Below are positions 2,365-53,641 of a stretch of DNA of 64,000 nucleotides, one piece after another (the stretch's first letter is position 1; every line of letters begins with the position of its first letter). Source of the stretch: Maribacter sp. HTCC2170 (lineage in GTDB: Bacteria > Bacteroidota > Bacteroidia > Flavobacteriales > Flavobacteriaceae); the NCBI RefSeq assembly GCF_000153165.2, contig NC_014472.1, positions 741,501-805,500 of the forward strand, read 5' to 3'. A program made the position numbers and the translations under genes. Under the pieces are notes generated by a model, which saw only the letters and a list, made by a program, of their open reading frames with translations, was not told the origin of the DNA and did not search any database.

Positions 2365-2383
2365 GGTCGATTATTCATTATGA

Positions 2384-7748: not shown

Positions 7749-7781
7749 GGTTATTCTATTTATGTCTTTCTAGGTCCAGTA

Positions 7782-10016
7782 TTACTTCACTAAAAAATCT
7801 AATTCTGCAATAGCCGCTGACGTATCGCTTCCTGCAATTACCTTAGATGCTATTTTAATGTATCTGGTTGTAATAGTATTATTAAATTGATGCGTCCTAG
7901 CAACCGGGTCGTTAATTAAATTACCAAATTCAAAAACATCAAAAGGCTTCCAAGATTTCCCATCGTCGCTTACTAAAAGTTCACCTTGTTCAATCATTCC
8001 TTCGCCATTCTCTTTTTGTGGAGTATATACAAATCCGTTAAGTGTATACTTTTTTCCTAAATCGATTGAGACATAGTGCTTTTTACTATCCGATTTTGAT
8101 TTCCAATACGTATTTTCATCCTCATCAAAAACATGATTGCCTTGATGCTCTTTTAAATTACTGTCTGTATCAATAAGTTTCCAATCTTTTTTGAGAATAC
8201 CTAACCTTCTGGACGTTTCACTGCCAGAAACATTCTTAATAAAGGCTCTTGCTTTTACCTCACCAAAATCTAATCTGAAAGGAGATTCAAATGAAGACGA
8301 TTCCTTTGATGGTTCGCTTCCATTTGTGGTATACCTGATTTCCAAACCGTAAGACAGATTACCCCCATTACCCTGTCCGTGAGGTTTCCATCCAAACACA
8401 TGTTTTTTTGGCTGAATACTTACTTCTCCTTCAATAGTTCTTGTAATACTTAATTGTGGTGGGCGGGTATTATAATAAAATGCAGAAACAACAGAAATTG
8501 CTGGACTTAATCGTGATTCTGAAATTCTAATTCGGAATTTATTGGAAGTTATCTCAGGAAAACGCAAAATTCGCTTATACCCAATATTAGTGGCCGTAGC
8601 CACTTCTTGCCAAGAATTATTTAGCCATGCATCAATGGCATGCTTTTCAACCCTTTCACTATGTGTGAAAATTGCCTCTTGTAGGACCAAACGATTAATT
8701 GTAATTGCTTCGTTCAGTGTAATTTCGATTTCTTTCTGTTCACTGTCCAAAAGCTCAAAAGTATCCGTATTTGTATCCAATACATTTTTTGGCCCCGATG
8801 CACCTCTAAACAAATCGGTAGTGTACGTTTCATTAATACGCTCACCAACTTCTTGCAAAACACGAACATCTTCAGGTGAAAATCTACCTACTCTATTTGG
8901 TGGAATGTTCAATAAAAAGGTAGAGTTACCCCCTACTGAACGCTCATAGATATCAAAAATATCATCTACGCTTCTTGTTTTCTGCGAAGTATCATCTCTA
9001 TAAAACCATCCTTCCCGAATCGAAGTATTTGTTTCAGCCTGTTGATAGTGTAAATATTTAGCGTTATATAATTTTTCCCTACTACCTATATCCTTGCTGG
9101 TAATATCAGCAAAACTGTTCATTTCGAGCGGATTTTCCTGATAAGGAACAATATTCCACTCCGTATTTCTTGTACCACCAGATTCGTTACCACACCATCT
9201 AATATCCTGTTTACCAAAGACAACGGCTTCTGGCGCTAAGGTAGAAATCAACTCTTTCCAGGCTATATAATTATATTTTTGCCCTCCTTTACGTTTTGGG
9301 TGTGCCCCATCAAACCATACTTCGTGAATTGGGCCATACTCAGTCAGCAATTCGAACAACTGATTTAAGAAATACTCATTATAATCATCGACGTTAAATG
9401 TAAATTTTGTTTTGTTTTCAAAAGGGCGCCCTTCAATTGGTCTAGGAATAACTCGATCAGAATAAGTACTTAAATTCCCATATAACCCTTCTTTGTTTTC
9501 AATTTGATATAGATCGGCCGGCGATAAATAAACCCCCAACTTTAACCCATACTTTTTACAAGAAGCAGAAAGTTCTTTTAAAATATCGCCTTTCCCGTCC
9601 TGAAAAGGTGTTGACATTATACCATGTTTAGTATAACGACTCTGCCAGAGCACAAAACCATCATGATGTTTAACAGTGATAACGACCATTTTCATTTGGG
9701 CTGCTTTCATTGCTTTGCACCACTGATCGGTATCCAATTCTTCCAGATTGAAAATTTTTGGATCTTCCATTCCGTTACCCCATTCCATTCTGGTAAACGT
9801 ATTGGGGCCAAAATGAATAAACGCTATAAACTCATTCTTTAAGGCATTATATTGATTTGCTGTGGGCACAATATGTGCCGCTTTATATATAATGGAATCA
9901 TTCGTATCATCATTGTCAATTGAACTGGTTGAAGTGGTAATCGGTAATTGTCTTGTAGACATATTGCAAGACACTAATGTCAAGGCTAAACTGATAAAAC
10001 AAAGGAGTTTTTTCAT
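7782..10016 (-). CDS. GH29 alpha-L-fucosidase with discoidin-like domains, lipoprotein
   Basis: 744 residues, lipobox LVSC (Cys17). The catalytic TIM barrel spans about 60-380, with FIHFG at 66-70, KHHDGF at 116-121 and HEVWFDG, where Asp236 is the expected nucleophile. The C-terminal half carries an F5/8 type C-like domain (about 400-520), a chitobiase-type beta domain (about 540-610, ITRTIEGEVSIQPKKHVFG) and a second F5/8-like domain (about 630-744, YWKSKSDSKKHYVSIDLGKK). This layout is typical of GH29 subfamily B enzymes, which prefer alpha-1,3/1,4-linked fucose in branched contexts. It is nine bases downstream of another GH29 gene and clearly co-transcribed. The two GH29 enzymes are too different to be a recent duplication. 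Confidence 0.93.
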   Translation of the reverse strand: MKKLLCFISLALTLVSCNMSTRQLPITTSTSSIDNDDTNDSIIYKAAHIVPTANQYNALKNEFIAFIHFGPNTFTRMEWGNGMEDPKIFNLEELDTDQWCKAMKAAQMKMVVITVKHHDGFVLWQSRYTKHGIMSTPFQDGKGDILKELSASCKKYGLKLGVYLSPADLYQIENKEGLYGNLSTYSDRVIPRPIEGRPFENKTKFTFNVDDYNEYFLNQLFELLTEYGPIHEVWFDGAHPKRKGGQKYNYIAWKELISTLAPEAVVFGKQDIRWCGNESGGTRNTEWNIVPYQENPLEMNSFADITSKDIGSREKLYNAKYLHYQQAETNTSIREGWFYRDDTSQKTRSVDDIFDIYERSVGGNSTFLLNIPPNRVGRFSPEDVRVLQEVGERINETYTTDLFRGASGPKNVLDTNTDTFELLDSEQKEIEITLNEAITINRLVLQEAIFTHSERVEKHAIDAWLNNSWQEVATATNIGYKRILRFPEITSNKFRIRISESRLSPAISVVSAFYYNTRPPQLSITRTIEGEVSIQPKKHVFGWKPHGQGNGGNLSYGLEIRYTTNGSEPSKESSSFESPFRLDFGEVKARAFIKNVSGSETSRRLGILKKDWKLIDTDSNLKEHQGNHVFDEDENTYWKSKSDSKKHYVSIDLGKKYTLNGFVYTPQKENGEGMIEQGELLVSDDGKSWKPFDVFEFGNLINDPVARTHQFNNTITTRYIKIASKVIAGSDTSAAIAELDFLVK

Positions 10017-10025
10017 TTTTTTTAA

Positions 10026-11507
10026 TCATTCTTTGGTTATTTTAAAAACATAAGCGTAGTCCAATCCAGGCTGAATTTTATTTGGGTCGTAGGTGGAACC
10101 TTCCAAAACAATATTATTTCCCTGTTGTTTCCAGTTAATCGTCTCTCCAGTCGCCAACAAGGTAATAAGAGAGCTTTTATTCAACACGACATTTTCTAAA
10201 ACAATTTCTTTATCTGACCATCTGGGGACAATAGCATAATAAGCACTGTTAGTCTGAGTGAAGAATACCTCTTTTACCGCATATCCTGGTTCGGGATCAA
10301 CAGTTTGTTTTAATATAAAGTCACCGCCTAAATAGTGCTGTTTTGGTTTGAAATTTCGTTCACCTTCAGACCACTGAAAAGAACTATTCCAAGGAGTGGT
10401 ATTGTAAATGGCCTCCCCATTAACTCTTAACCACTTACCCATTTGTTTTAACCTTTCTTGCATTATTACCGGGATTCTACCTCGAGAATCAGGACCAATG
10501 TCCAGCAATAAATTACCACCCGTACTAACAATATTTACTAGCATCAAAACCAATGCTTTAGGAGTGTTATAATCCTCACTATCTTCATTTTGGTTGTACC
10601 CAAATGAGAACCCCATTCCTCTGCATTCTTCCCAAGGTTTTTCAAATTCAGGTGCTTCAGATTCATATTCTGTTGTAAAATAACCTCCATGCTTTTTTCG
10701 AACACCTTTTCCCCAGCGATCGTTTACAACCACCGTATTTTTTATCTTGGATTCGTTGAACAACCAAGCCAAAAATTCTTTCGACTTCCATTTTTCGGCT
10801 TCCATATCCCATTCCCCGTCTGCCCAAAGGATGTCCGGTTGGTAATTTTGAACTAAATCTTTTACTTGAGGCAGAAAATGTTCATCTACAAAACGTTCCT
10901 TGTCATTTTGCCACCAAGGGTGATACCATTCGTATAATGAATAATACAAGCCCATCTTAATTCCCTTCTTCTTAACTGCATTTGACAATTCTCCAACCAA
11001 ATCTTTTTTAGACCCAACTTCCATACTATTCCATGCAAATCCTCGATCATTGGCTTCTTTGTTTGGCCATAATGTAAAACCATCATGATGTTTTGAAGTA
11101 AGAACCACATATTTTGCACCAGCTTCTTCAAACAAACTTGCCCATTTATCTGGTTCGAACAAATCTGCTTTGAACATTTCCCCAAATTTGTAATAGTCAA
11201 AATTCTTACCGTATGTCTTATGATGATACTTGGTAACCTCATCTCCTTTAAAATCTCCATTTCCAAAAAGAGCCTCGCTTTGCAACCAGTATTGATACCA
11301 TTCAGAATAAGTGCCTTTGGGCGACCACGCAGGAACCGAATATGGGCCCCAATGAATAAATATTCCAAACTTGGCTCCTCCGAACCAATTCGGAACCGAT
11401 CTGGAGTCAATTGATTCCCAGGTGGGTTGATATTGTTTTTGGGTCTGAGCCACACCTGAATAAACTATGCATAGAAATACGAAGAGAATTGTAACTTTTT
11501 TGAGCAT
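10026..11507 (-). CDS. GH29 alpha-L-fucosidase, secreted (subfamily A-like)
   Basis: 493 residues with a type I signal peptide ending near SGVAQ (residue 21). The retaining GH29 barrel has WFGGAKFGIFIHWG, SKHHDGFTLW and DILWADGEWD, where Asp230 is the predicted nucleophile. A C-terminal beta domain (about 375-490) follows, as in most family members. It lacks the extra carbohydrate-binding domains of its neighbour, consistent with the broader-specificity subfamily A. First gene of the six-gene leftward operon, so its upstream region (11508-11766) should hold the operon promoter. It would release alpha-L-fucose in the periplasm. Confidence 0.94.
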   Translation of the reverse strand: MLKKVTILFVFLCIVYSGVAQTQKQYQPTWESIDSRSVPNWFGGAKFGIFIHWGPYSVPAWSPKGTYSEWYQYWLQSEALFGNGDFKGDEVTKYHHKTYGKNFDYYKFGEMFKADLFEPDKWASLFEEAGAKYVVLTSKHHDGFTLWPNKEANDRGFAWNSMEVGSKKDLVGELSNAVKKKGIKMGLYYSLYEWYHPWWQNDKERFVDEHFLPQVKDLVQNYQPDILWADGEWDMEAEKWKSKEFLAWLFNESKIKNTVVVNDRWGKGVRKKHGGYFTTEYESEAPEFEKPWEECRGMGFSFGYNQNEDSEDYNTPKALVLMLVNIVSTGGNLLLDIGPDSRGRIPVIMQERLKQMGKWLRVNGEAIYNTTPWNSSFQWSEGERNFKPKQHYLGGDFILKQTVDPEPGYAVKEVFFTQTNSAYYAIVPRWSDKEIVLENVVLNKSSLITLLATGETINWKQQGNNIVLEGSTYDPNKIQPGLDYAYVFKITKE

Positions 11508-41859: not shown

Positions 41860-42312
41860 TTATATTTTTTCGAAAGTCAAATAATCAGTGCTACTATCCT
41901 CTGTGCTTACATCGATAAGTTCAATTTTTGAACTTGAGTATTTCTTTATTTCCCAATCATCTGCAAGCTCCTCAAAAATATCTGGGGTTGTAAAGAATAT
42001 ATTGAAATCCAACTCGTCATTATCTGTAGATTTCAAAGACCAAGCACCAGATACCGAAGTACTCCCATCTGTAGCTCCTAAAGTACCATCATTGTTGAAT
42101 GTGAAATTGAAGCCTTCATAATTGATGGTTTCATTAGAGCCAGCATCTGAATAATCAGTTATTTTCCAATCACCAGATTCAACTGCCGTCTTAATTTTAG
42201 ACATATCAGCCGATGTAATCTCTTGTTCAACTTCTGTTTCATCCTTATCACATGAAATTATTAATCCCATGCTCAGTATGGCAAATGCCATAAACATTAT
42301 TCTTTTTTTCAT
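41860..42312 (-). CDS. Lipocalin-like lipoprotein, single-unit relative of the 587-residue neighbour
   Basis: 150 residues with lipobox LIISC (Cys21). The mature part is one beta-rich module: GDWKITDYSDAGSNETINYE, FTFNNDGTLGATDG, VSGAWSLKSTDNDELDF, and an ending TDYLTFEKI. This pattern (a W-x-I/L start, an F-x-x-DG block, a G-x-W strand, an F-E-K-I end) matches each of the three C-terminal units of the next gene upstream, whose chain ends DHLIFEKI. A common origin is therefore likely. Function unknown; lipocalin-like is a description, not an assignment. Confidence 0.75.
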   Translation of the reverse strand: MKKRIMFMAFAILSMGLIISCDKDETEVEQEITSADMSKIKTAVESGDWKITDYSDAGSNETINYEGFNFTFNNDGTLGATDGSTSVSGAWSLKSTDNDELDFNIFFTTPDIFEELADDWEIKKYSSSKIELIDVSTEDSSTDYLTFEKI

Positions 42313-42374
42313 AGGTTAGAATTTAGGGGTATTAAAAAAGACCCCCAACACAAATTGCATTGGGAATCAATATA

Positions 42375-44138
42375 TTATATCTTCTCAAAAATCAAATGGT
42401 CATAGCCGCCATAGCGATTTTCGTGCTTTAATTCTATTCGATTTTCTTCAACCTCTAGAATTTTATAGTCATTGCTAAGAGGTTGGAAATTACTTCCAGG
42501 CTCGAACCTAATTATCATTTCCAATTTTTCATCACTATTTCTATACACATACCATTTGCCAGTACTAATCTCTTGCATGTCCTGATCTAGAACGGTAATC
42601 GCACCATCTGTACTGAACTTATAAATGAAACCACCATAAGCTTCAACCATTGGATCCTCATTTTGATTGAACAAAGCTAATTCCCATTCGGTTTCATTGA
42701 ACAACCCTCTAATCCAAGTTACATCTTCGTCGTTATCGTCATTATCACAATTTCTTTCAAGAACCAACTCATAATCTGTTCCGGGTATTGAGAATTTTAG
42801 TCTATCATCTCTTAAGTCAGACAATGGCCATTCAAAACTAACACCAGGCTCTTCTCCCATAGTTATTGCCATTACCAAACGTCCTTGCTCATTTGTGGTT
42901 ATCTCCCAAGTACCTTGAGATACAATATCTCCACTACTCAATGTAACAACACCTTCTGGTTCGAAATTGAATTCAAATCCTAACAACCTTTTGATTTCCT
43001 GACCTTCGTTGAACACTCTCTTTATTATCCAACTACATTCAGTTAACACTTCTCTCAGTGTGTTTGGATCATCATTAATAATATCACAACCTCTGTGCAT
43101 TATAATACGGTTTCCGTCATCACCATAAATCTTGATTCTACCTTCACCCAATTCATAAACAAACCATTCTAAAGTAAAATCAACCAAGTCATCAAACTCC
43201 ATCTTCAACATTACTTTATGCTCTGCTACTCTAGTAGACCATGTTCCATTCAATTCATTACCCTCGCGGTCAACAACCTTAACTGCACCATCTTCGGTGA
43301 AATTCATCACGTAATCAATATATTGGTCTGTCTGTAATTGATTATCTCTTTTAACCTCATGAATTAACCACGGGCACTCAACCAAATACTCTTCTAATCT
43401 TTCTTGGGTAAAGTCATCATCGTTATGATCATTATCATCATCTTCATCACATAACTCTTTCGCATTTTCTATTGCCGCAGCCATTTCAGCATTTGAATTA
43501 ACCACCATTTCAGTATCATCATACAATTTCAGAGTTACAGGAAAATCCATACTTATCAGGTCATCCTTGTCAAGTCCCGCAAAAAATCTTCTAAGATCTT
43601 TATCACTCTCAACAATAATATTCCCTGTTTCTTCATTATTAAGATCAAAAGTGTACATCGTAATAGGATATACAAAATCTATACACTCAATATCGTCATC
43701 ATCACCACCTTCTTTACAATCCTGGGCCAGTTCACGTAAATCCTCAATACCATTAATGGTTACTTCGGCATAATCTGCCATAGTGATTGTTATTGGGAAA
43801 ATAATGTCTAAAACATCCTCATCATCTTCCAAAGCATCAAAAATCTCCTCGATCATATCAAGATTCTCTATTGAATTAATTGTTAATTCAACTCCGTTTA
43901 CGTTAACCGTATATGGAAAATTGATGTTGAAACAACTTGATTCATCAACTATATTGTCAAATGACCCATCATTAGAGCATGTATCCTCTATCAACTTGGC
44001 AGTTGATGAACTTGCATTTATCGCTTGTTCTTGGGCCTCATCCTCAGGTAATTTCTCAAACTCATCCTGACAAGAAGTGAATGTTAATGCCATTACCAGT
44101 AGGCTAGAGTAAAATGTGTAACTAAAAAACTTTTTCAT
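42375..44138 (-). CDS. Acidic multi-repeat lipoprotein of unknown function
   Basis: 587 residues, lipobox FTSC (Cys23). Four short repeats fill residues 70-230, each with a (F/Y)P-(I/V/Y)-T strand, a second strand and a helix: INFPYTVNVNGVEL, IIFPITITMADYAEV, FVYPITMYTFDL and MDFPVTLKLYDDTEM. A very acidic linker follows (CDEDDDNDHNDDD). Three lipocalin-like units of about 100 residues complete the protein (249-351, 363-464, 478-587), each starting like CPWLIH, CSWIIK or TEWELA and containing a G-T/K-W strand. Acidic Cys-containing spacers separate the units. It is divergent from the ECF sigma gene with 109 bases between start codons, and co-directional with the single-unit lipoprotein. I do not recognise a family. 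Confidence 0.75.
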   Translation of the reverse strand: MKKFFSYTFYSSLLVMALTFTSCQDEFEKLPEDEAQEQAINASSSTAKLIEDTCSNDGSFDNIVDESSCFNINFPYTVNVNGVELTINSIENLDMIEEIFDALEDDEDVLDIIFPITITMADYAEVTINGIEDLRELAQDCKEGGDDDDIECIDFVYPITMYTFDLNNEETGNIIVESDKDLRRFFAGLDKDDLISMDFPVTLKLYDDTEMVVNSNAEMAAAIENAKELCDEDDDNDHNDDDFTQERLEEYLVECPWLIHEVKRDNQLQTDQYIDYVMNFTEDGAVKVVDREGNELNGTWSTRVAEHKVMLKMEFDDLVDFTLEWFVYELGEGRIKIYGDDGNRIIMHRGCDIINDDPNTLREVLTECSWIIKRVFNEGQEIKRLLGFEFNFEPEGVVTLSSGDIVSQGTWEITTNEQGRLVMAITMGEEPGVSFEWPLSDLRDDRLKFSIPGTDYELVLERNCDNDDNDEDVTWIRGLFNETEWELALFNQNEDPMVEAYGGFIYKFSTDGAITVLDQDMQEISTGKWYVYRNSDEKLEMIIRFEPGSNFQPLSNDYKILEVEENRIELKHENRYGGYDHLIFEKI

Positions 44139-44222
44139 AACGATTTGGATTTTTTTTGTTCGTATGACTTTAAAACAACCAACTTTAAAAATACCCTACC
44201 CCGTTATTTCATTTTTTTCAAA

Positions 44223-44230
44223 TATCTTTG
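44223..44230 (+). promoter_or_regulatory. Candidate -7 element of the sigma/FecR/receptor operon
   Basis: TATCTTTG fits the TAnnTTTG consensus and lies 18 bases before the TTG start of the sigma gene. No good TTG is found 17-23 bases upstream, so the promoter may be of a different class, or be recognised by its own ECF factor. A GGAG follows immediately (44230-44233) and may act as ribosome binding site for the TTG start. Confidence 0.35.
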
Positions 44231-44247
44231 GAGTAAAACCAATCTAA

Positions 44248-44760
44248 TTGAACTCCAATACTCAGGACAACGTATGTGAAGAAGAGGTATATAGCAATCT
44301 CTTCAGGGCTAATTCCAAAACGGTTTTTAACTATATATATTATAAATTCGGTAATGAAGAAAAGGCGAATGATGCGGTGCAAGAGGCCTTTGTAAAACTT
44401 TGGGAGAACTGCGCGAAGGTTACGCCAGAAAAAGCCAAGGCATACGTTTATACTATAGCGAACAATCTATACCTTAATGTAATAAAGGCCGAGAAAGTAC
44501 GATTAAAACATGCCGATAAAGTAAATACAACCAATTTTGAGTCCCCAGAATTTTTAATGGAGGAAAACGAATTCAAGAAAAAATTGGACGACGCGTTGAA
44601 CGCACTTCCTGAAAACCAACGAACTACCTTCTTGTTAAATAGAATCGACGGAAAGAAATATGCCCAGATTGCAGAAATGGAAGGGGTAAGCGTAAAAGCG
44701 ATTGAAAAGCGTATGCATTTGGCGCTTAAAACGCTACGCGAACAAATAGATGGAATTTAA
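44248..44760 (+). CDS. ECF (FecI-like) RNA polymerase sigma factor
   Basis: 170 residues. The start is a TTG codon, since a stop codon (TAA at 44245-44247) lies directly before it and no ATG follows for a long distance. Region 2 is visible in FNYIYYKFGNEEKANDAVQE with AFVKLWENC, and region 4 in LPENQRTTFLLNRIDGKKYA with a helix-turn-helix (IAEMEGVSVKAIEKRMHLAL). Such factors guide RNA polymerase to a small set of promoters, usually those of adjacent receptors, and are held by FecR. It is first in an operon with fecR and a TonB receptor, with 51 bases before the FecR start codon. Confidence 0.93.
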   Translation: MNSNTQDNVCEEEVYSNLFRANSKTVFNYIYYKFGNEEKANDAVQEAFVKLWENCAKVTPEKAKAYVYTIANNLYLNVIKAEKVRLKHADKVNTTNFESPEFLMEENEFKKKLDDALNALPENQRTTFLLNRIDGKKYAQIAEMEGVSVKAIEKRMHLALKTLREQIDGI

Positions 44761-44811
44761 AAGTAGGGTTTTTTTAATTTGAATTGTTATTAAGATATAA
44801 AGCTAGAAATC

Positions 44812-45723
44812 ATGCAAGAAAATTACTTGGCTAAATGGCTCAATAACGAACTCACAGAGGCTGAACTCGCAGAATTCAAGAAATCTGACGAGTACACTTC
44901 TTATAAACGAATTCGAGAGACCTCCAGTACTTTGGAAGGGCCTGATTTTAATATAGAAAATGCTCTAGAGGCTGTTAAAAATAAACGGGTTCTACAGGAG
45001 GATAAAGTGATTCAATTGAAACCTTTTAAAAGGTTCTTAAGAGTGGCTGCTGCTGTAACACTTATTATGGTGGGCTCTTATTTTTATCTGAATACTTTGA
45101 ACGAAAATATTGCTACCCAATATGCTGAAAATAAAGAGGTAGTACTCCCAGATGCATCGGAGATTCTTTTAAATGCCGAATCACAAATATCCTATAGCGA
45201 AAAGAAATGGGATGAAGAAAGAAATGTTTCTTTGGAAGGAGAGGCTTTTTTCAAAGTGGCCAAAGGAAAACGATTTACAGTATCCACAGATCATGGAGAT
45301 GTGGTGGTGTTGGGAACCCAGTTCAATGTTGAAAATAGAGAAGGTTATTTTGAGGTTACTTGTTATGAAGGATTGGTAAGTGTAACCTTCAACAATGAAG
45401 AAACCAAACTACCAGCCGGGACTTCTTTCTTGGCAATCGATGGTAAAGTAATAGATACTGACAAACCGAATGCGGAGACACCATCATGGATGAACAATGA
45501 AAGTTCTTTCAAGAGTATTCCTTTAAAATATGTCCTTGATGAATTTCAGAGACAGCACAACATTAAGGTTGAAACACAAAATATTAGTATTAATACATTA
45601 TTTACAGGCACTTTTAGCAACACAAATACAGAATTGGCGTTACAAAGTATTAGTGTTCCTTCTCAAATAAAGTTTAAATTAGAAGGAAATAAAGTGTTGT
45701 TCTATGCCCAAGAAACGCCATAA
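44812..45723 (+). CDS. FecR family anti-sigma factor
   Basis: 303 residues. A short cytoplasmic N-terminus (about 1-74) leads to one transmembrane helix (FLRVAAAVTLIMVGSYFYL). The periplasmic FecR domain follows (VVLPDASEILLNAESQISYS, VSLEGEAFFKVAKGKRFTV, VLGTQFNVENREG). The last 70 residues form a DUF4974-like end (IPLKYVLDEFQRQHNIKVE, LFTGTFSNTNTELALQSIS). It should bind the upstream sigma factor and respond to the receptor encoded next, whose start overlaps its end by 20 bases. This tight coupling supports one signalling unit. Confidence 0.92.
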   Translation: MQENYLAKWLNNELTEAELAEFKKSDEYTSYKRIRETSSTLEGPDFNIENALEAVKNKRVLQEDKVIQLKPFKRFLRVAAAVTLIMVGSYFYLNTLNENIATQYAENKEVVLPDASEILLNAESQISYSEKKWDEERNVSLEGEAFFKVAKGKRFTVSTDHGDVVVLGTQFNVENREGYFEVTCYEGLVSVTFNNEETKLPAGTSFLAIDGKVIDTDKPNAETPSWMNNESSFKSIPLKYVLDEFQRQHNIKVETQNISINTLFTGTFSNTNTELALQSISVPSQIKFKLEGNKVLFYAQETP

Positions 45724-48274
45724 GCAATTCTTAATTGTTTTATCTTTTCTGTTACTATCGTTTTACCCAAAAAACATAATAGCACAGGAAGACGTTGGTG
45801 ATTCCCAAAACCTAGTCACTTACCTTCAAATATTGGAGCAACGTTTTGAAATAAAGTTTTCTTTTGTTGATGAGGACATTGATAAAATTAACATCGTTAT
45901 TCCTGAAAATCAGAACCTACAGGAAATTCTATTGAATCTGCAGGAACAAACGCAGATTAAAATTCAAAAACTTAATACTCGCTATTATACCCTGACTAAA
46001 AGCACTACGGTGGATATTTGCGCAACGGTTCTTGATAATTTCAAAGAAAATACGGTAAATGGTTCAACCATAGAGGTGCTGGGAAGTTCTGTTGCAGGTA
46101 TAACCGATGAAAATGGAGCTTTCAATTTTGAGAATATTCCAAGAGATGCAATCATTCAAATCAAACATATAGGCTTTAAACCTTTGTTCATTGCCGCCAA
46201 AGAATTGACAGGGGCCAACCCATGCAAAACACTTCTGCTGGATGAAAAATTTGAGCAATTGGAAGAGGTTATTGTACATCAGTTCTTGACAACCGGTTTA
46301 AGCAAAGAACCGGATGCAAGTATTCAACTACAAACCAATGACTTTGGTATACTTCCAGGGTTAATTGAACCAGATGTATTACAAACCATTCAGGCACTAC
46401 CAGGAATAAAAAGTATTGATGAAACTGTATCCAATATCAACATTCGTGGCGGAACCAATGACCAAAATCTTATTCTTTGGGACGGCATCAGAATGTACCA
46501 GTCAGGTCATTTTTTTGGTCTGATTTCTGCCTTTAATCCCTACCTGACCGAAAAGGTTACCTTAATTAAAAATGGTACTAGCGCAGAATATGGCGGTGGA
46601 GTCAGTGGTATTCTTGATATTAAAACCAATAATCAAATTACCGATTATTTAGCTGGTGGAGCAGGATTTAACTTGATTAACGGAGATATATATGGGCAGG
46701 TACCTATTGCGCATAATGCAGCATTTCAGTTTTCAGGAAGAAGATCGTTAACCGATTTTTTCAATACCCCAACCTACGATGAATTTTTTAAAAGAGCATT
46801 TCAAGATACTCAAATCAAAGGCGGGACCGGGCAGTCGGATGAAATCAACAGAACGGAAGATTTTTATTTCTACGATTTTACGGGTAAACTTTTATATGAC
46901 ATAAATGAAAATCATAAAATCAGGGTCAGTTTTATCAATATCAACAATCATCTTGATTACACAGAACAAAACATAACTTCATTACGTGAAACCAACAGCA
47001 GGTTAAACCAAACAAATCTTTCTATAGGAGGAAGCTTAGAAAGCAATTGGAGTGATGTTTTCTCAACAAAGATCAACACATATTACACCCATTATGACCT
47101 TGATTCGGAGAACACCACGGTGAATTCTCCCCAAATCCTATCGCAGGAAAACGAAGTAATAGAAACCGCGCTTGTTTTGAATACACGGTTTCAACTAAGT
47201 GATGCGTTACATTGGTTAAATGGTTACAACTTAAGAGAAACAGGAGTGTTCAATTTTTCAGAAGTTAGTCAACCTCCTTATTTTAATAAAATTAAAAACG
47301 TTTTGCGCTCACATTCGGTTTTTTCAGAAGTGGAATATAGGTCCCCAGACGAAAAGCTTTTTGCAAGAGGAGGAGCTCGCGTAAACTATGTTGAAAATCT
47401 TGACACTTTCAGTGAATATATTGTTGAACCTCGCTTAAATGTCAATTATGAGCTATCCCAAGATTTTAATATTGAATTGCAAGGGGAGTTTAAAAGTCAA
47501 TCCACGCATCAAGTTGTAGATTTAGAACAGAATTTTTTAGGAATTGAAAAACGTAGATGGTACATCGCCGACCCAGAAAACGCACTAGTACCTTTGCCAA
47601 TTACAAAAAGCAAACAAGGTTCAATTGGCTTAAATTATGACCATCACAGCCTATATGTTGGGGCTGAGGCGTTTTATAAACAAGTCAATGGAATTAGTGC
47701 CCGAACCCAAGGATTCCAAAGCAAAGATCAATTCAATGAAGAAATCGGCAGTTATGATGTGAAAGGAATCGAGTTTCTGATTAATAAAAAAACAGCAGAT
47801 TATAGCGCATGGTTAAGTTATACCTACAACGTTAATAATTATACTTTTGATGATGTTGTTCCCAGTACATTTCCCAACAATCTAGATGTTAGGCATACGC
47901 TTACTTTTGCAGGTAATTACACCTATAATGATTTTAGAATTGGTGTCGGGTTAAATTATAGGAGCGGAAAGCCATTTACCAAACCTGAGGAAAACAATCC
48001 GGTTAACACTAATTTCTTTCCTAGTAGAATTACTTTTCAAGAACCAAATAGCAGCCGATTGCCCGAATTCTTAAGAGTTGACACCTCAGCCTTGTATGAT
48101 TTTGACCTCCTTCCTAAAATTAAGGCGACAGTAGGTGTATCAATACTGAATGTCACAAATCGTAAAAACATTCTCAACACGTATTACCGTCTAAATAGTA
48201 ATGACGAAGTTGAAACGGTAGAGAGTGTTTCTTTAGGTCTAACACCCAATTTTAGTTTTAGACTGAAATTTTAA
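45704..48274 (+). CDS. TonB-dependent outer-membrane receptor with N-terminal STN and carboxypeptidase-like domains
   Basis: 856 residues with a signal peptide ending near IIAQED (residue 28). Next comes a secretin/TonB short N-terminal (STN) domain (about 35-100, YLQILEQRFEIKFSF), the domain through which such receptors contact FecR, then a carboxypeptidase-regulatory-like domain (about 105-190). The plug follows (LPGIKSIDETVSNINIRGGT, NLILWDGIRMY, AEYGGGVSGILDIKTN), and the rest is a beta-barrel of the usual length, ending in Phe (FRLKF). There is no SusD-like partner, so it is FecA-like rather than a SusC glycan importer. The ligand is unknown. Confidence 0.92.
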   Translation: MPKKRHKQFLIVLSFLLLSFYPKNIIAQEDVGDSQNLVTYLQILEQRFEIKFSFVDEDIDKINIVIPENQNLQEILLNLQEQTQIKIQKLNTRYYTLTKSTTVDICATVLDNFKENTVNGSTIEVLGSSVAGITDENGAFNFENIPRDAIIQIKHIGFKPLFIAAKELTGANPCKTLLLDEKFEQLEEVIVHQFLTTGLSKEPDASIQLQTNDFGILPGLIEPDVLQTIQALPGIKSIDETVSNINIRGGTNDQNLILWDGIRMYQSGHFFGLISAFNPYLTEKVTLIKNGTSAEYGGGVSGILDIKTNNQITDYLAGGAGFNLINGDIYGQVPIAHNAAFQFSGRRSLTDFFNTPTYDEFFKRAFQDTQIKGGTGQSDEINRTEDFYFYDFTGKLLYDINENHKIRVSFININNHLDYTEQNITSLRETNSRLNQTNLSIGGSLESNWSDVFSTKINTYYTHYDLDSENTTVNSPQILSQENEVIETALVLNTRFQLSDALHWLNGYNLRETGVFNFSEVSQPPYFNKIKNVLRSHSVFSEVEYRSPDEKLFARGGARVNYVENLDTFSEYIVEPRLNVNYELSQDFNIELQGEFKSQSTHQVVDLEQNFLGIEKRRWYIADPENALVPLPITKSKQGSIGLNYDHHSLYVGAEAFYKQVNGISARTQGFQSKDQFNEEIGSYDVKGIEFLINKKTADYSAWLSYTYNVNNYTFDDVVPSTFPNNLDVRHTLTFAGNYTYNDFRIGVGLNYRSGKPFTKPEENNPVNTNFFPSRITFQEPNSSRLPEFLRVDTSALYDFDLLPKIKATVGVSILNVTNRKNILNTYYRLNSNDEVETVESVSLGLTPNFSFRLKF

Positions 48275-48408
48275 AATTAGTCACTCTATTAATTCTACTT
48301 CTTTTCCTACTATATCGAACATAGTGAGGATTATTCTGGTTGAACAAGACAATATTTTAACGTTTTAAAAGTTAATATAATCAACCCAAACCAACCTACG
48401 TTTTTAGA

Positions 48409-50343
48409 ATGAAAACTTCTTATTCCTTCATTTGTTCAGCGCTTTTAATTATTACAAATATAACTGCACAAAAAAGTGTTAACCCAACTGAAGAACACAT
48501 AGCCCATGCCGAGTTATTGAGCTCAATCTATCCCGATGATGAGATTCTTATTCTCAACAGTAATGAAAACATAACCTTTGATTACAATAAATCAGATAAT
48601 CTTGTGGAGGTGAACCAGAAACTCAACGAGGAATTAATGAATATTGTGCCAAGGTCAGACATTCAGAAATATGTCATGTACGACAACACAACCAAAATCA
48701 AAAATTTTAGCACAAAGCTCAGAAATGGTAAGCCAAAATATTTTGCGGTAAAAGATGAATTTTATGAAAGTGGTGACATTTTTTATCATGATGCCCGGGT
48801 CAAATACATGAATATTGACTTTCCTGTCAAAGGGTACAAATACAAATACAACCTTGAAAAAGAATATAGCGATATAAAGTACTTTACTAAAATCGCCTTT
48901 AATAATGAATACCCTATTCTAGAAAAGAAAGTATCATTTTATATCCCTGATTGGTTACAATTGAAAGTAATGGAATTTAATCTTGAAGGATATGAAATCA
49001 ATAAAGAAGAAAAATACGACGAAAAGAAAAAAGCCACTGAGTATACGTATACCATAAAAAACATGCCTGCTTTTCCAACAGAAAAGAATGCCCCAGGACC
49101 ATCACACTATCAACCACATGTTCTAGTAATTGCCAAATCAATGACCAAGGACGAAAACAAGGTAAACTTGTTTCCTGAAACCCAACAATTATACGATTGG
49201 TACAAATCTTTGGTTGATAGTATGGAAGATGATACAGCTGTCCTAAAAAGTAAAGTCGATGAACTTACCGAAGATGCCAAGACAGATGATGAGAAAATCA
49301 AAAATATCTACTACTGGGTTCAGGACAATATAAGATATATAGCTTTTGAAGATGGTATTGCCGGTTTTAAACCCGATGAATCACAGAATGTATTTACCAA
49401 ACGTTATGGTGATTGTAAAGGTATGGCCAATCTCACTAAAAAAATGCTGGTTCTCGCGGGTTTTGATGCCAGATTAACTTGGATTGGCACTAAGAGAATC
49501 GCCTATGACTATTCTATCCCAAGTTTAGCTGTAGACAATCACATGATTTGTTCACTTATTGACAACGGAAAAACATATTTCTTAGATAGCACAGAAAAAT
49601 ATAACTCCTTTGGTGAATATGCTGAACGCATTCAAGGAAGACCAGTTTTAATAGAAAATGGTGATGAGTATATTTTAGATAACATCCCCAATGGGATTGC
49701 TTCCAAGAATAAGGAAATTACAAACTATGACTTTGAGATTTCCGATGATAAAATTATCGGAACGGTAAATAAGACCTATCAGGGAGAAAGCAGGTCGCAC
49801 TTTTTACATAGCTATAATTCAATCAAGACAAACAAAAAAGAGAACGCTCTTAATGCCTATTTGAGTAAAGCGGATAAAAATTGTCAAGTCACTGATGTCA
49901 ATACAACAGACTTGGAAAATAGGGACAATGATATAACTATTGATTATTCTATTTCTTTGGACAATAAAATCTCTTCTTTTGATGACGAGGTTTACATTGA
50001 TTTGGAATACGGGAATCATTTTAAAGATTTGGACCTTTCCGAAAGAGAACTTGATTTGGAGTTCCCGTATAAAACACACGTTGAGTATAACACTACATTA
50101 AAAATTCCGAACGGCTATAGTATAAAAGAGATTCCTGAAGATTTCAATGTACAAACTGAAGATTTCAACATTTCAATAACAATTATCAAAAAGAACAATA
50201 CTCTTGAGTATAACAAAAAGTTTGTATTAAATAAGGCAGCGATTACCAAAACTAATTTTGAGAAATGGAATTCAGCCGTCAAACAACTGAACAATATCTA
50301 CCAAGAACAAGTGATACTTATCAAAAACAATAATACCAAATAA
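48409..50343 (+). CDS. DUF3857 / transglutaminase-like exported protein with intact triad
   Basis: 644 residues with a signal peptide (cleavage near ITAQK, residue 21). The N-terminal part (about 50-250) is a DUF3857-type beta domain. The transglutaminase-like core is at about 290-400, with Cys336 in YGDCKGMAN, His378 in VDNHMICSL and Asp393 in YFLDSTEK. This is the expected Cys-His-Asp order, so peptidase, transamidase or amidase chemistry is possible. A C-terminal beta domain (about 430-630) follows. It is 134 bases after the TonB receptor, on the same strand, and 11 bases before a paralogue. The natural substrate is unknown. Confidence 0.88.
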   Translation: MKTSYSFICSALLIITNITAQKSVNPTEEHIAHAELLSSIYPDDEILILNSNENITFDYNKSDNLVEVNQKLNEELMNIVPRSDIQKYVMYDNTTKIKNFSTKLRNGKPKYFAVKDEFYESGDIFYHDARVKYMNIDFPVKGYKYKYNLEKEYSDIKYFTKIAFNNEYPILEKKVSFYIPDWLQLKVMEFNLEGYEINKEEKYDEKKKATEYTYTIKNMPAFPTEKNAPGPSHYQPHVLVIAKSMTKDENKVNLFPETQQLYDWYKSLVDSMEDDTAVLKSKVDELTEDAKTDDEKIKNIYYWVQDNIRYIAFEDGIAGFKPDESQNVFTKRYGDCKGMANLTKKMLVLAGFDARLTWIGTKRIAYDYSIPSLAVDNHMICSLIDNGKTYFLDSTEKYNSFGEYAERIQGRPVLIENGDEYILDNIPNGIASKNKEITNYDFEISDDKIIGTVNKTYQGESRSHFLHSYNSIKTNKKENALNAYLSKADKNCQVTDVNTTDLENRDNDITIDYSISLDNKISSFDDEVYIDLEYGNHFKDLDLSERELDLEFPYKTHVEYNTTLKIPNGYSIKEIPEDFNVQTEDFNISITIIKKNNTLEYNKKFVLNKAAITKTNFEKWNSAVKQLNNIYQEQVILIKNNNTK

Positions 50344-50354
50344 ACAACCTAAAC

Positions 50355-52550
50355 ATGATCAACAAAGAATCAATAATTTGCCTGTTCGTTAGTTTATGCA
50401 CATTTTCGATTGTTGCACAATCCAAAAAGGAAATTGAGATAAAAGAGATCTTCTGGGGTGCAAACGACACCCAAAAAGAAAATGCAGATATACCATCAAA
50501 ATGGCAAGATCAGTCGGCCGTTATTCTTTATAAGGAGTACTTCTATGATTACCACAAATTTGCCAAGCAGGTAGATTATGTACACTCATTTAGAAAACGA
50601 ATTATGCTATTGGATAAAGCGGCTATTGACGATCATTCTGAATTTTCATTCACCAAAAGATTGAGGGCTAGAAAAGGTTGGGGAAGAAGAGGCACCAACT
50701 ATGTAGGGGTAAAAATCATAAAACCAGATGGTTCTGAAAAAGAAATTGAGATTGATGAAGAAGCGGTCAGGGCCGATGATGAATATAAATTGGCTATATC
50801 CGGATTAGAGGAAGGTGATATATTAGATTATTACATCTATAGCATAGAACCCTTTAAACAAAAATACGGGTACACTTTTGAACCCATAACACGAACCATA
50901 AGCGATGAATACCCTATTAAAGAGATGGTATTGAAATTCAACACCGAAAATGATTTTTTCATCAATTTCAACAGCTATAACGGTGCTCCCGAGCTTGCCG
51001 AAATAAAGACTGACAAAAGAAATGACAGAAGGTATACACTTAAGGCAGAAAACATAGATAAGAACGATTTCCCATTTTGGTATTATCCTCAAATAGAATT
51101 ACCCTATTACAAGTTTCAAGTAACTTTTGCACGCAGAGGAAGTCATGAGAACAGAATTTTCGATTTCATTTCCGAAGATGAAGATGTAATCAAAAAGGTG
51201 GTGTCAAAAGAAGACGTTCTAGAGCTTTACCATGATCACTGGGATTATGACGCGAAGAACTCAAGATTCAGGGAATTAGACAAGTTTTTTGAAGGTCATA
51301 ACCTTTCTGAAGAAGAAAAGATAAAACAGGCGTACTATTATTTTAGACATTTTTACCTCACTCAATTCATAGAGCGATCGGTCTATGCCCAAACCGAGAT
51401 CATTCCTAACATGGTCTATGGCAGCACTGCTTATGATGACCATTTTGATGCATTTGAGAATACCTCATTGATGGCTGAATACTTAGATAGGCATGAAATA
51501 AAATTTGACCGTATTCTTGCTGTCCCAAGGTATGAAGGCACCATAAAGGACGTTCTTTTTAAAAGTGAAATCTCGACTTTTTTAGAAGTTCATGTAAACG
51601 GAAAAACATTATATGTTCCACCATTGTCGCAACATTCCGATATTGATGAGCTAGCGTATAAGTTTGAAAATACCGAAGTCTATGCCCTTAACAAGATTGA
51701 TGGCAAAAACAAGTTGAACAACATTAAGACAGTCTCAACCAGAAAAACCTCTTTTGAAGATAATGGCACTGTAGATAACGCTATAATTACCCTCAATGAA
51801 GATTTTAGTGGTTTCAAGGTTGAAAAAAACGTGGCCTACAAGGGGAACAGCAAAAGTTCTGCCCAAGAAGACCTACTTTATTATTTTGACTATATAAATG
51901 AAGACTATAAGAAATTCAACAACCAAAACTATATAGACAAACAGGTAAAAAAGAAAAAACGAAAAGACCAAATCCAGAAAGAGTCACATGCGTTAATTTC
52001 CAAACTGAAGAAAAGGCAAGGGGAATCTATAAAAAAACAGACTGAAAAAGAGTACGATTTGACTATAGACGAACATACGTATGAAATTTTGGAAACGGGT
52101 AGATATGGTCACGAAAGTCCGTTAGTAACTAAAGAGTATTTTACCATTGAAAACCAATTGGTAAAAAAAGCAGGAAAGAACTATATTTTTGAAGTTGGGA
52201 GATTAGTCGGCGGCCAAGTTAGTTTAACAGAGAAAGAAAAAGCACGTACAAATAACGTTTACATGTACTCGCCAAGGTCTTTTGAAAACACCATTGAATT
52301 GAAAATTCCTATTGGATATTCTGTTGGAGGTCTTGACAAATTGAATGTGAATATTGAAAATGCCTCTGGTGGATTCATTAGTTCTGCCAAAATCGAAGGT
52401 GACGTATTAAAAATTCATACTCGTAAGCACTACAAAAATTATTTTGAACCAAATGCAAACTGGCCTCAAATAGTAGATTTTCTTGAAGCCGCCTACCAAT
52501 TCACACAAGAAAAGATAATTTTCAAAAAGGGTAAATCAACAGCTAAATAA
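50355..52550 (+). CDS. DUF3857 / transglutaminase-like paralogue lacking the catalytic triad
   Basis: 731 residues with a signal peptide ending near IVAQSK (residue 22). The N-terminal DUF3857 domain (about 55-265) is well preserved, with LEEGDILDYYIYSIEP. In the transglutaminase-like part the triad is lost: the Cys position falls in FENTSLM (about residue 368-369, no Cys), the His position in ISTFLEVHV, and the Asp position in YVPPLS. It is longer than the first copy, with an added basic, charged stretch (KKKKRKDQIQKESHA). Start is 11 bases after the active copy. It may be a non-catalytic partner or scaffold. A strong terminator follows. Confidence 0.85.
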   Translation: MINKESIICLFVSLCTFSIVAQSKKEIEIKEIFWGANDTQKENADIPSKWQDQSAVILYKEYFYDYHKFAKQVDYVHSFRKRIMLLDKAAIDDHSEFSFTKRLRARKGWGRRGTNYVGVKIIKPDGSEKEIEIDEEAVRADDEYKLAISGLEEGDILDYYIYSIEPFKQKYGYTFEPITRTISDEYPIKEMVLKFNTENDFFINFNSYNGAPELAEIKTDKRNDRRYTLKAENIDKNDFPFWYYPQIELPYYKFQVTFARRGSHENRIFDFISEDEDVIKKVVSKEDVLELYHDHWDYDAKNSRFRELDKFFEGHNLSEEEKIKQAYYYFRHFYLTQFIERSVYAQTEIIPNMVYGSTAYDDHFDAFENTSLMAEYLDRHEIKFDRILAVPRYEGTIKDVLFKSEISTFLEVHVNGKTLYVPPLSQHSDIDELAYKFENTEVYALNKIDGKNKLNNIKTVSTRKTSFEDNGTVDNAIITLNEDFSGFKVEKNVAYKGNSKSSAQEDLLYYFDYINEDYKKFNNQNYIDKQVKKKKRKDQIQKESHALISKLKKRQGESIKKQTEKEYDLTIDEHTYEILETGRYGHESPLVTKEYFTIENQLVKKAGKNYIFEVGRLVGGQVSLTEKEKARTNNVYMYSPRSFENTIELKIPIGYSVGGLDKLNVNIENASGGFISSAKIEGDVLKIHTRKHYKNYFEPNANWPQIVDFLEAAYQFTQEKIIFKKGKSTAK

Positions 52551-52618: not shown

Positions 52619-53641
52619 CTAATTGCCACACATTCCTGTAGTCTTAACCTTCATCACCGTAAACTTATTATGAATCGTATTGAGCAATGAATATTGATCA
52701 AATGAATCTTGACCAAGCTCCCAAATCATAATACCACCTGTTCTCTTTACTGCCAATTCCACTTTCCTTTCTATAGTAGATCTTCCATTATAGTACCGCT
52801 GTGTAGATTCATCTAAGTCGGCAAACTCAGTGCTCTCTTCAATCATTTGCCCATAAGTGAATGACACAACTTCTTGATTGGTAAAATCGTATCCATAGAA
52901 AGGAACTCCAAGTGTTAGTCTATCGGAGTTTATATTTTGAGAGCTATTCCAAAAGTCAATCCCATTCTCAGCAAAATCATAAGAGCTATGCTGGCCAGGA
53001 TTATTAGCGTTCCATGGCCCTGTGCCATCATAAGCCATAATATTTATAAAATCGAACGCGGCAAGCGCTGCATCGTTAATATGTTCAAATCGCGTATTAT
53101 TTGGTAGTGCAGCAGTTAGAAGTTTATCTTCTTTTTTCAATGCCTGATTTAATGTCAAAATAAAATTACTGTATCCAATAGTAACATGACTCCATTCTAA
53201 ATCTACATCAACCCCATCCAAATCATTTAACAATACATAGTCTATTATTTTATCAACAAGGGTGCTTGTTTTGGTATTATCATCAACAAACGAAGACCAA
53301 TTTATTTCTTGCTCGACAGAGAGGCTGCCACCTGCGAGAGAAATAAAAATGAGGATATCCCCATTTCTGCTCCGAGCGTCATTCACCACATCATTTATGC
53401 TTTCTGGAACAATAAGGTTACCTTCATTATCAGGGTTTGCAAAGGCCAGGTTAAGATGGGTTAATTTGCAATAATCAATTTTGTTACTATTAAAAAAACG
53501 ATAGTAGGGCAAATACCCAACAACTCTTTTCTCCCCATTGTTTTCATAAATAATGGAATCCTCTGTTGATGAGTCAGAACAGGCTCCTGCCCAAACTATA
53601 GTACATAGAGCAAGTCTTTTGAAGAATTTTATCAAAAACAT
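52619..53641 (-). CDS. GH18 family (chitinase-like) lipoprotein
   Basis: 340 residues with lipobox AGAC (Cys21). The TIM barrel shows the GH18 signature DLDGVDVDLEW, where Glu149 is the expected acid, with the preceding Asp residues also in place. Blocks KLTHLNLAFANPDNEGN (beta2), FINIMAYDGTGPWNANN and LGVPFYGYDF complete the family pattern. GH18 includes chitinases and endo-beta-N-acetylglucosaminidases; with no chitin-binding domain, its substrate is undecided. The gene is convergent with the DUF3857 pair and 29 bases downstream of argS. Confidence 0.9.
   Translation of the reverse strand: MFLIKFFKRLALCTIVWAGACSDSSTEDSIIYENNGEKRVVGYLPYYRFFNSNKIDYCKLTHLNLAFANPDNEGNLIVPESINDVVNDARSRNGDILIFISLAGGSLSVEQEINWSSFVDDNTKTSTLVDKIIDYVLLNDLDGVDVDLEWSHVTIGYSNFILTLNQALKKEDKLLTAALPNNTRFEHINDAALAAFDFINIMAYDGTGPWNANNPGQHSSYDFAENGIDFWNSSQNINSDRLTLGVPFYGYDFTNQEVVSFTYGQMIEESTEFADLDESTQRYYNGRSTIERKVELAVKRTGGIMIWELGQDSFDQYSLLNTIHNKFTVMKVKTTGMCGN

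Follow-up and report, generated by a model that had tools for sequence, protein, structure and literature searches.

A lipoprotein-linked ECF sigma, FecR and TonB-dependent receptor module of Flavobacteriaceae as a candidate outer-membrane response system

Cell-surface signalling systems of the FecI-FecR-FecA type, including the FpvA and FoxA type of Pseudomonas, combine an extracytoplasmic function (ECF) sigma factor, a FecR anti-sigma factor and a TonB-dependent receptor (TBDR) with a signalling-type N-terminal domain. The sigmaE (RpoE) envelope stress response works with the RseA anti-sigma factor and its proteases and with small RNAs. To our knowledge, little is known about outer-membrane sensing and repair in flavobacteria, and few flavobacterial ECF sigma factors have assigned promoters. 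Here we analyzed a stretch of 64,000 nt from Maribacter sp. HTCC2170 (hereafter the window; NC_014472.1, assembly GCF_000153165.2, positions 741,501-805,500 of the forward strand). In its locus at 41,860-52,550, the gene of a large lipoprotein (hereafter LP) is divergent from the genes of an ECF sigma factor, a FecR-type protein and a TBDR. A promoter-like sequence before LP and fecR recurs before a small-RNA candidate and before two ORFs for tiny membrane proteins, suggesting that one switch also controls these. This would make the LP-sigma-FecR-TBDR module a candidate outer-membrane response system.

The module resembles the Fec-type systems in its three signalling proteins and in the predicted control of the receptor by sigma, for which a motif lies before the fecR-receptor pair. 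In contrast to them, its fecR and receptor genes overlap and share a predicted sigma-read promoter, and its sigma gene has a housekeeping-type promoter. A constant lipoprotein without a named family stands beside them, with no constant transport gene identified alongside, and the predicted regulon includes a small RNA and small membrane proteins. Compared with Fec-type signalling, the module brings in a lipoprotein as constant partner, a promoter read-out and a compact predicted regulon. With the sigmaE response the module would share an ECF sigma factor driving a small RNA and envelope proteins; however, a receptor and FecR take the place of RseA and its proteases, the promoter differs, and the RNA candidate has no Rfam match at gathering score. 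SusCD and PUS loci, such as PUSIII of Flavobacterium johnsoniae (PMC8115612), likewise place a sigma factor, FecR and a receptor beside a lipoprotein. The PUSIII lipoprotein has been likened to a polygalacturonase (PMC8115612), whereas LP consists of beta-beta-alpha units and lipocalin-like barrels and has no SusD match. In F. psychrophilum, seven ECF sigma factors and one ECF-type motif have been reported (PMC9723704). In the literature searched, with subscription papers mostly beyond reach, we found no published description of the LP-sigma-FecR-TBDR unit. The unit provides a sigma factor whose lipoprotein partner occurs in roughly three quarters of the family genomes sampled, a promoter predicted to the base and a short list of predicted targets. 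It also adds a lipoprotein domain that belongs to no Pfam or NCBIfam family and a candidate RNA matching no Rfam family.

A sequence-only reading had placed seven open reading frames (ORFs) in the locus, and an ORF check bore out their order and positions, together with the 20-base overlap of fecR and the receptor gene (45704-45723). With starts taken as the longest-ORF choice, this overlap is 20 nt in 36 pairs and has other lengths in the remaining pairs.

Table 1 Features of the locus and predicted targets outside the window (positions are those of the window unless a genome or locus is named; G000 is the window's genome)
Feature	Coordinates	Strand	Remarks
Small lipoprotein	41860-42312	-	One lipocalin-like unit; optional member
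LP (large lipoprotein)	42375-44138	-	Predicted surface-type; lipobox, then C-QDEFE; main output by prediction
Predicted ECF-sigma promoter of LP	44171-44199	-	GTAGGGTATTTTTAAAGTTGGTTGTTTTA; 0 mismatches, the first pattern being written from the site itself
Housekeeping-type -7 box TATCTTTG	44223-44230	+	Ahead of sigma gene; fits TAnnTTTG
ECF sigma (Bacteroidetes, FecI-like)	44248-44760	+	TTG start; Pfam and NCBIfam domains
Second predicted ECF-sigma promoter	44763-44791	+	20 nt before fecR start; 3 mismatches to first pattern, 1 to refined pattern
FecR-type anti-sigma	44812-45723	+	FecR and FecR_C; one membrane span by eye
TBDR	45704-48274	+	N-terminal signalling-type domain, carboxypeptidase-regulatory-like domain, plug, barrel
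First exported DUF3857 protein	48409-50343	+	
Second exported DUF3857 protein	50355-52550	+	
Small-RNA candidate, ~105 nt	L154:3950-4092 = G000:C1:3810949-3811091		Outside window; own ECF-type motif, terminator
55-aa ORF	G000:C1:2841130-2841294	-	Outside window; one hydrophobic stretch, behind motif
30-aa hydrophobic ORF	G000:C1:511732-511818	+	Outside window; behind motif

Linkage and spread of the module

The sequence-only reading had proposed that the lipoproteins, the sigma-FecR-receptor genes and a downstream pair of DUF3857 proteins act together. A survey of relatives supports LP, sigma, FecR and TBDR as one unit by conserved linkage and a shared promoter-like motif, but the DUF3857 pair is rarely linked to them. 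Loci were chosen by the receptor alone among named genomes, in order to avoid choosing them by LP, and the best 80 of at least 573 relatives were kept. LP stands beside a divergent sigma gene in 70 of these 80 loci, and eight of the ten LP-less loci run into a contig end upstream. In L074 (455-8105), about 7.6 kb is inserted between sigma and fecR, and LP falls beyond the examined stretch; the motif before fecR is kept intact at 8056 despite the insert. At L095 (2-1039), an ORF for an exported protein, an unrelated gene, occupies the expected position of sigma, followed by the contig end.

Of 60 relatives searched with LP, 28 had matches, counting the own genome. Of the 36 stretches chosen in this way, 35 hold an LP match, and the divergent sigma gene is the next gene in 25. 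Among the other ten, L049, L052 and L054 are incomplete; L057, L061 and L062 are divergent with intervening ORFs; L064 and L066 hold the four genes together in changed order; and L063 and L067 show weak LP matches with no visible module. In 47 of 48 further top-scoring LP-chosen loci, at least seven of which come from genomes already seen, a sigma gene lies near LP, and the remaining stretch (L158) ends within a second LP gene.

The N-terminal domain of LP (N-domain) was found in 226 of 299 sampled Flavobacteriaceae genomes, covering 163 of 203 genera. In a phylum sample, 30 of 296 genomes carry it, 26 of the 30 being Flavobacteriaceae. Many modules sit between ffh-folD and argS, and several genomes carry extra copies at unrelated places. 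Beyond the four genes, argS (67), ffh (65) and folD (65) are the constant neighbors across the 80 loci, followed by families present in 43 and 37 loci. No second module was seen in the window's genome, where the other receptor matches reach 25-31% over parts of the query. BLAST detects the small lipoprotein in 12 of the 70 receptor-chosen loci that hold LP; its gene lies 62 nt from LP and is probably transcribed together with it.

Pairwise distances were compared over 60 loci, after dropping L043, L051 and every locus in which any of the seven genes was missing. Given ffh, folD and argS, the partial correlation with the receptor barrel is 0.57 for the N-terminal and 0.62 for the C-terminal part of LP, and that between sigma and FecR is 0.85. 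LP against argS or folD, given the other controls, yields 0.10-0.15. The distances are not independent, and the correlations are in keeping with a possible joint function.

Promoter-like motif and proteins of the module

Alignment of 84 distinct LP-sigma intergenic stretches (of 99, 12 were dropped by length and three as duplicates) reveals two conserved elements. The element toward sigma is TATCTTTG, and that toward LP is GTAGGGT-N13-GTTGTTTTA. The former fits TAnnTTTG, the flavobacterial housekeeping -7 box (PMC9723704), which alone shows no enrichment in the window (72 occurrences versus 88 expected). The latter, in the form GTAGGGT-N13-GTTGTTWTA, recurs about 20 nt before the start of fecR in most loci.

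The motif was scored at 14 or more of 19 positions in 200-nt upstream stretches, with 90 nt inside the gene added for LP. Some genomes belong to both the unnamed and the named set; where upstream stretches or sigma tails were identical, a single copy was counted, here and in the covariation below. The motif precedes LP in 88/101 and fecR in 84/105 cases. Elsewhere it was found before sigma in 2/104, the receptor in 0/106, the small lipoprotein in 0/22 and other ORFs in 12/704 cases, and before none of the neighbors ffh (0/82), folD (0/82) and argS (0/69). In the upstream stretches of LP, the reversed pattern gave 2/101 and base shuffles gave 0/101.

A loose form of the site is present on both sides in 110 of 129 modules. 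In these 110, the two sites of a module carry the same base at motif positions 6 and 7 in 98% and 95%, compared with 69% and 66% after permutation, and most spacer positions agree no more than under permutation. The -35 variants GTAGGGT, GTAGGAA and TCAGGAG go with the module at both its sites. This agreement is what one sigma factor reading both sites would leave, with relatedness among the modules inflating the figure.

The sigma protein scores above the Pfam cut-offs for Sigma70_r2 and Sigma70_r4_2 and above the NCBIfam cut-off for TIGR02937; TIGR02985 reaches 119.7 bits, below its cut-off of 126.4. FecR and FecR_C are above the Pfam cut-offs in the anti-sigma protein, where a hydrophobic stretch was read by eye as a membrane span. 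In the receptor, Plug is above the Pfam cut-off and CarbopepD_reg_2 scores 32.0 bits against a cut-off of 32.2. The receptor model (mean predicted local distance difference test score, pLDDT, 79.0) shows an N-terminal alpha/beta domain (residues 34-98), the carboxypeptidase-regulatory-like domain, the plug and the barrel, and its best solved structures in Foldseek are TonB-dependent transporters, with FpvA first and FoxA and FecA included. Plug was found by Pfam in 22/22 receptors, and the carboxypeptidase-regulatory-like domain is missing in several relatives. The region of the putative N-terminal signalling domain is present in all unsplit receptors aligned. The Pfam FecR_C model touches 20/22 receptors at E up to 1 (best 1e-6), the match in the window receptor having E 0.13 (residues 35-92).

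The LP model (mean pLDDT 85.7) contains four beta-beta-alpha units in its N-terminal part (about residues 70-230), a feature beyond the text of the sequence-only reading, followed by an acidic linker and three lipocalin-like barrels up to the C-terminus. The repeat which that reading saw in both lipoproteins is confirmed (LP residues 466-587 against the small lipoprotein, E 1.7e-5, 23% identity). In VIA-align, the barrels superpose on the Bacteroidetes lipocalin-like proteins potempin E and BACUNI_01346 (Z 10.8 and 11.2; root-mean-square deviation 2.6 and 2.4 Å), and the top match is Vibrio ToxS (Z 11.7). Potempin E and BACUNI_01346 match a single barrel, whereas LP has three behind its own N-domain. 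Since the VIA-align rows span mainly residues 243-418, they barely probe the fold of the N-domain. The fold common to the LP model and lipocalin-like proteins shows no function.

In a 26-member LP alignment, the invariant columns fall within the lipobox and the N-domain. The N-domain of the window LP matches no Pfam or NCBIfam family, and a search of solved structures with its profile returned only unconvincing matches (E 0.01 and up). Pfam PB1 matches 6 of the 26 N-domain relatives (best 6e-5), which we did not accept as membership, and the SusD family is absent from the Pfam matches of LP, the small lipoprotein and these 26 relatives. Among 101 LP rows, in some of which the lipobox regular expression places the cysteine wrongly, the commonest stretches at +2 to +6 are QEEFE (33) and QDEFE (13), and 84 rows have at least two acidic residues there. 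Since SDDFE was derived as a surface export signal in F. johnsoniae (PMC5080379), these acidic stretches make LP likely surface-exposed.

Predicted regulon beyond the module

A pattern refined from the module's own sites, searched at up to two mismatches in 12 genomes of the genus, yields 71 sites compared with 16 for its reversed control, about two sites per genome being those of the module itself. In the window's genome it gives five sites versus two in the control. The five lie before LP, before fecR, and at G000:C1:3811063 (small-RNA candidate), 2841372 (55-aa ORF) and 511665 (30-aa ORF). The follow-up of the genus sites left out G008:C3:28867. At three mismatches, the first pattern adds two sites in the own genome, at G000:C1:1654032 within an ORF and at 3566700 ahead of an iron-sulphur gene. 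Off-module sites were followed in 40 stretches: seven lie within an ORF and several stand before single genes seen once, and these are probably chance matches.

Counterparts of the small-RNA site occur in each of the 12 genus genomes, including that of the window, and also in G012. The candidate is intergenic, starts 7 nt downstream of the motif in the window's genome, and has a conserved core, TTCATGTGTTTAGGTTGG, which varies slightly in some rows, together with a terminator hairpin. Across the genus it precedes a GMP-synthase-like gene (by eye) and is convergent to another gene. A covariance model finds 29 matches in 28 of 149 family genomes. In the 20 with E below 1e-4, the core is kept with single changes in a few, and the motif reaches at least 16/19 in all, three of them (G000, G009, G012) having been found by the motif and used in the model. 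It lies within 60 nt in 14 of these and, in a 400-nt stretch, beyond a longer 5' part in six; several of those six also carry an extra hairpin-like insert. All 20 genomes are LP-positive. The terminator stems change in sequence between genera and keep their complementarity (by eye), and the 13-sequence alignment alone contains one pair changed on both sides. Since the ATG frames read by eye stop after differing short lengths, the candidate is, as far as seen, not a peptide gene. An Rfam search found no match near the gathering score.

The 55-aa protein has relatives in 21 of the 149 genomes, with the motif at 15/19 or better before 16 of 22 matches, two of the 16 being seeds. The 30-aa protein gives 11 matches in eight genomes, five with the motif, two of the five being seeds; motif-less relatives of this family lie nearby in G009. 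In addition, six genus genomes, not including the window's, have a site about 170 nt upstream of a family-2 glycosyltransferase gene (Pfam on one copy; L255, L265, L269, L271, L282 and L232). The iron-sulphur gene (by eye) has a site in two genus genomes and a poorer one in the window's. At L234 and L278, in one genome each, the motif (0 and 1 mismatch) stands about 60-100 nt before other predicted lipoprotein genes. Where they can be named, the predicted regulon members are mostly envelope proteins or an RNA. Sigma-dependent small RNAs are known in other systems (PMC11005410, PMC12249550).

Explanations of the module and its neighbors

We consider that the module is probably a FecI/FecR/FecA-type cell-surface signalling system with a small outer-membrane regulon. 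Because the sigma gene has its own housekeeping-type promoter, sigma would be made at all times and kept bound by FecR. A ligand or a surface state would engage the receptor, whose putative N-terminal signalling domain would then act on FecR and free sigma. The freed sigma would read the GTAGGGT-N13-GTTGTTWTA promoters, raising LP as well as fecR and the receptor as feedback. It would also raise the small RNA and, in the genus, the 55-aa and ~30-aa membrane proteins. LP, probably exposed at the surface, would be the main effector, serving the receptor or the outer membrane as partner, shield or capture protein. Computation shows the linkage and spread of the module, the motif with its covariation, and the conservation of the RNA element and the ORFs; the rest of this scheme, from the reading of the motif by this sigma to the outer-membrane function, is inferred. 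A role of LP as ligand or sensor, as in the sequence-only reading, is possible, and the motif points to LP as an output of sigma.

Several observations weigh against this explanation. Pfam STN matches only 5/22 receptors at E up to 1 (best 6e-4), and the LP structure is uninformative on the role of LP. In L124 (7486-9020), from a Robiginitalea metagenome-assembled genome, fecR and the receptor follow a perfect motif with no visible sigma or LP, which may be loss or misassembly. The receptor barrel and FecR also correlate with argS (0.31 and 0.28), and neither the covariation nor the partial correlations are corrected for shared ancestry. The pattern was drawn from the module's sites before its use elsewhere. 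Since the first pattern at up to three mismatches gives six sites in the own genome versus 14 in the reversed control, its weak matches are meaningless. Among the targets, 9 of the 29 RNA matches are weak and have neither motif nor core, and 6 of the 22 matches of the 55-aa protein and 6 of the 11 of the 30-aa protein have no motif at 15/19. An antisense target of the RNA was not found with the reverse complement of the core in ten genomes at up to three mismatches; the search gave 12 matches in nine of the ten, seven of which, at 0-1 mismatch, are the RNA gene itself by coordinates.

An ordinary nutrient-uptake locus, in which the receptor imports a ligand captured by LP at the surface and sigma raises uptake, with the RNA and small proteins as side branches, is possible but unlikely. 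The kinds of genes are the same as in Fec-type and PUS loci, including a cluster of F. johnsoniae induced at low phosphate, with a sigma factor, FecR, a TonB-dependent transporter and a lipoprotein (PMC8115612). LP and the receptor barrel diverge together, and lipocalin-like barrels often bind small ligands. However, the constant neighbors of the module are argS, ffh and folD, and the predicted regulon consists of a small RNA and tiny membrane proteins with few metabolic genes (the glycosyltransferase and the iron-sulphur gene in some relatives). Surface sensing with an outer-membrane output is favored, and its trigger may be a nutrient or a surface fault. We regard with more reserve the idea that the module serves outer-membrane homeostasis of Flavobacteriaceae in general, as a receptor-based counterpart of sigmaE and its small RNAs. 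In such a response the receptor would import no nutrient and would read the surface state, perhaps LP export. Sigma would answer with LP, the receptor, the tiny membrane proteins and a small RNA acting to trim envelope mRNAs.

It is improbable that another regulator reads the motif, or that the neighboring sigma is only one of several ECF sigma factors reading it. Cross-reading could occur because some genomes carry more than one module, with two in one stretch in L043 and L051, and one ECF-type motif may serve several sigma factors (PMC9723704); on the other side, the -35 variant is tied to the module at both sites, and the motif stands beside the sigma gene in most modules. We give almost no credence to the full proposal of the sequence-only reading, one surface system in which the transglutaminase-like pair and the lipoproteins act with the receptor: the pair is adjacent in the window and near the receptor in L123 and L132, but was not seen in the other 78 of the 80 loci or in the 36 others, lies elsewhere in two relatives, and has no nearby motif.

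The DUF3857 pair is shown to be a neighbor to exclude from the system. Beside the receptor, it occurs in 2/80 receptor-chosen and 0/36 LP-chosen loci, where at least 1.5 kb behind the receptor is visible in 74/80 and 25/36, respectively, and these genes thus lie apart from the module in most relatives, an outcome that the sequence-only reading had named as refuting its proposal and that does so for these two genes. It adjoins the receptor in L123, and one gene lies between them in L132. In a search of 60 genomes, the two closest relatives of the first DUF3857 protein (50% identity) share no contig with the LP modules of their genomes, and each is adjoined by a relative of the second protein. 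At up to three mismatches, the motif sites in the window lie only before LP and fecR, and none is near the pair. Linkage, the pairing elsewhere and the absence of a motif site led us to reject membership, and the simplest reading is that the pair is an independent unit that landed at the locus. In the pair, Transglut_core and DUF3858 are above the Pfam cut-offs, and DUF3857 is below its cut-off in both proteins. The sequence-only reading correctly saw one as active-looking and the other not: the first keeps Cys336, which with later DNH and FLDST stretches fits a transglutaminase-like triad, and the only cysteines of the second are residues 9 and 15.

No tRNAs or Rfam families were found in the window. 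A lipoprotein-like GH18 protein (Glyco_hydro_18, E 1.4e-33) is encoded at 52619-53641, between the DUF3857 pair and argS; its gene is absent from the gene maps of the receptor-chosen and LP-chosen loci of relatives. At the other end, window positions 1-11507 hold a minus-strand run of genes for exported proteins and lipoproteins, which, judged by eye, may form a cluster for glycan use or a sulfatase cluster.

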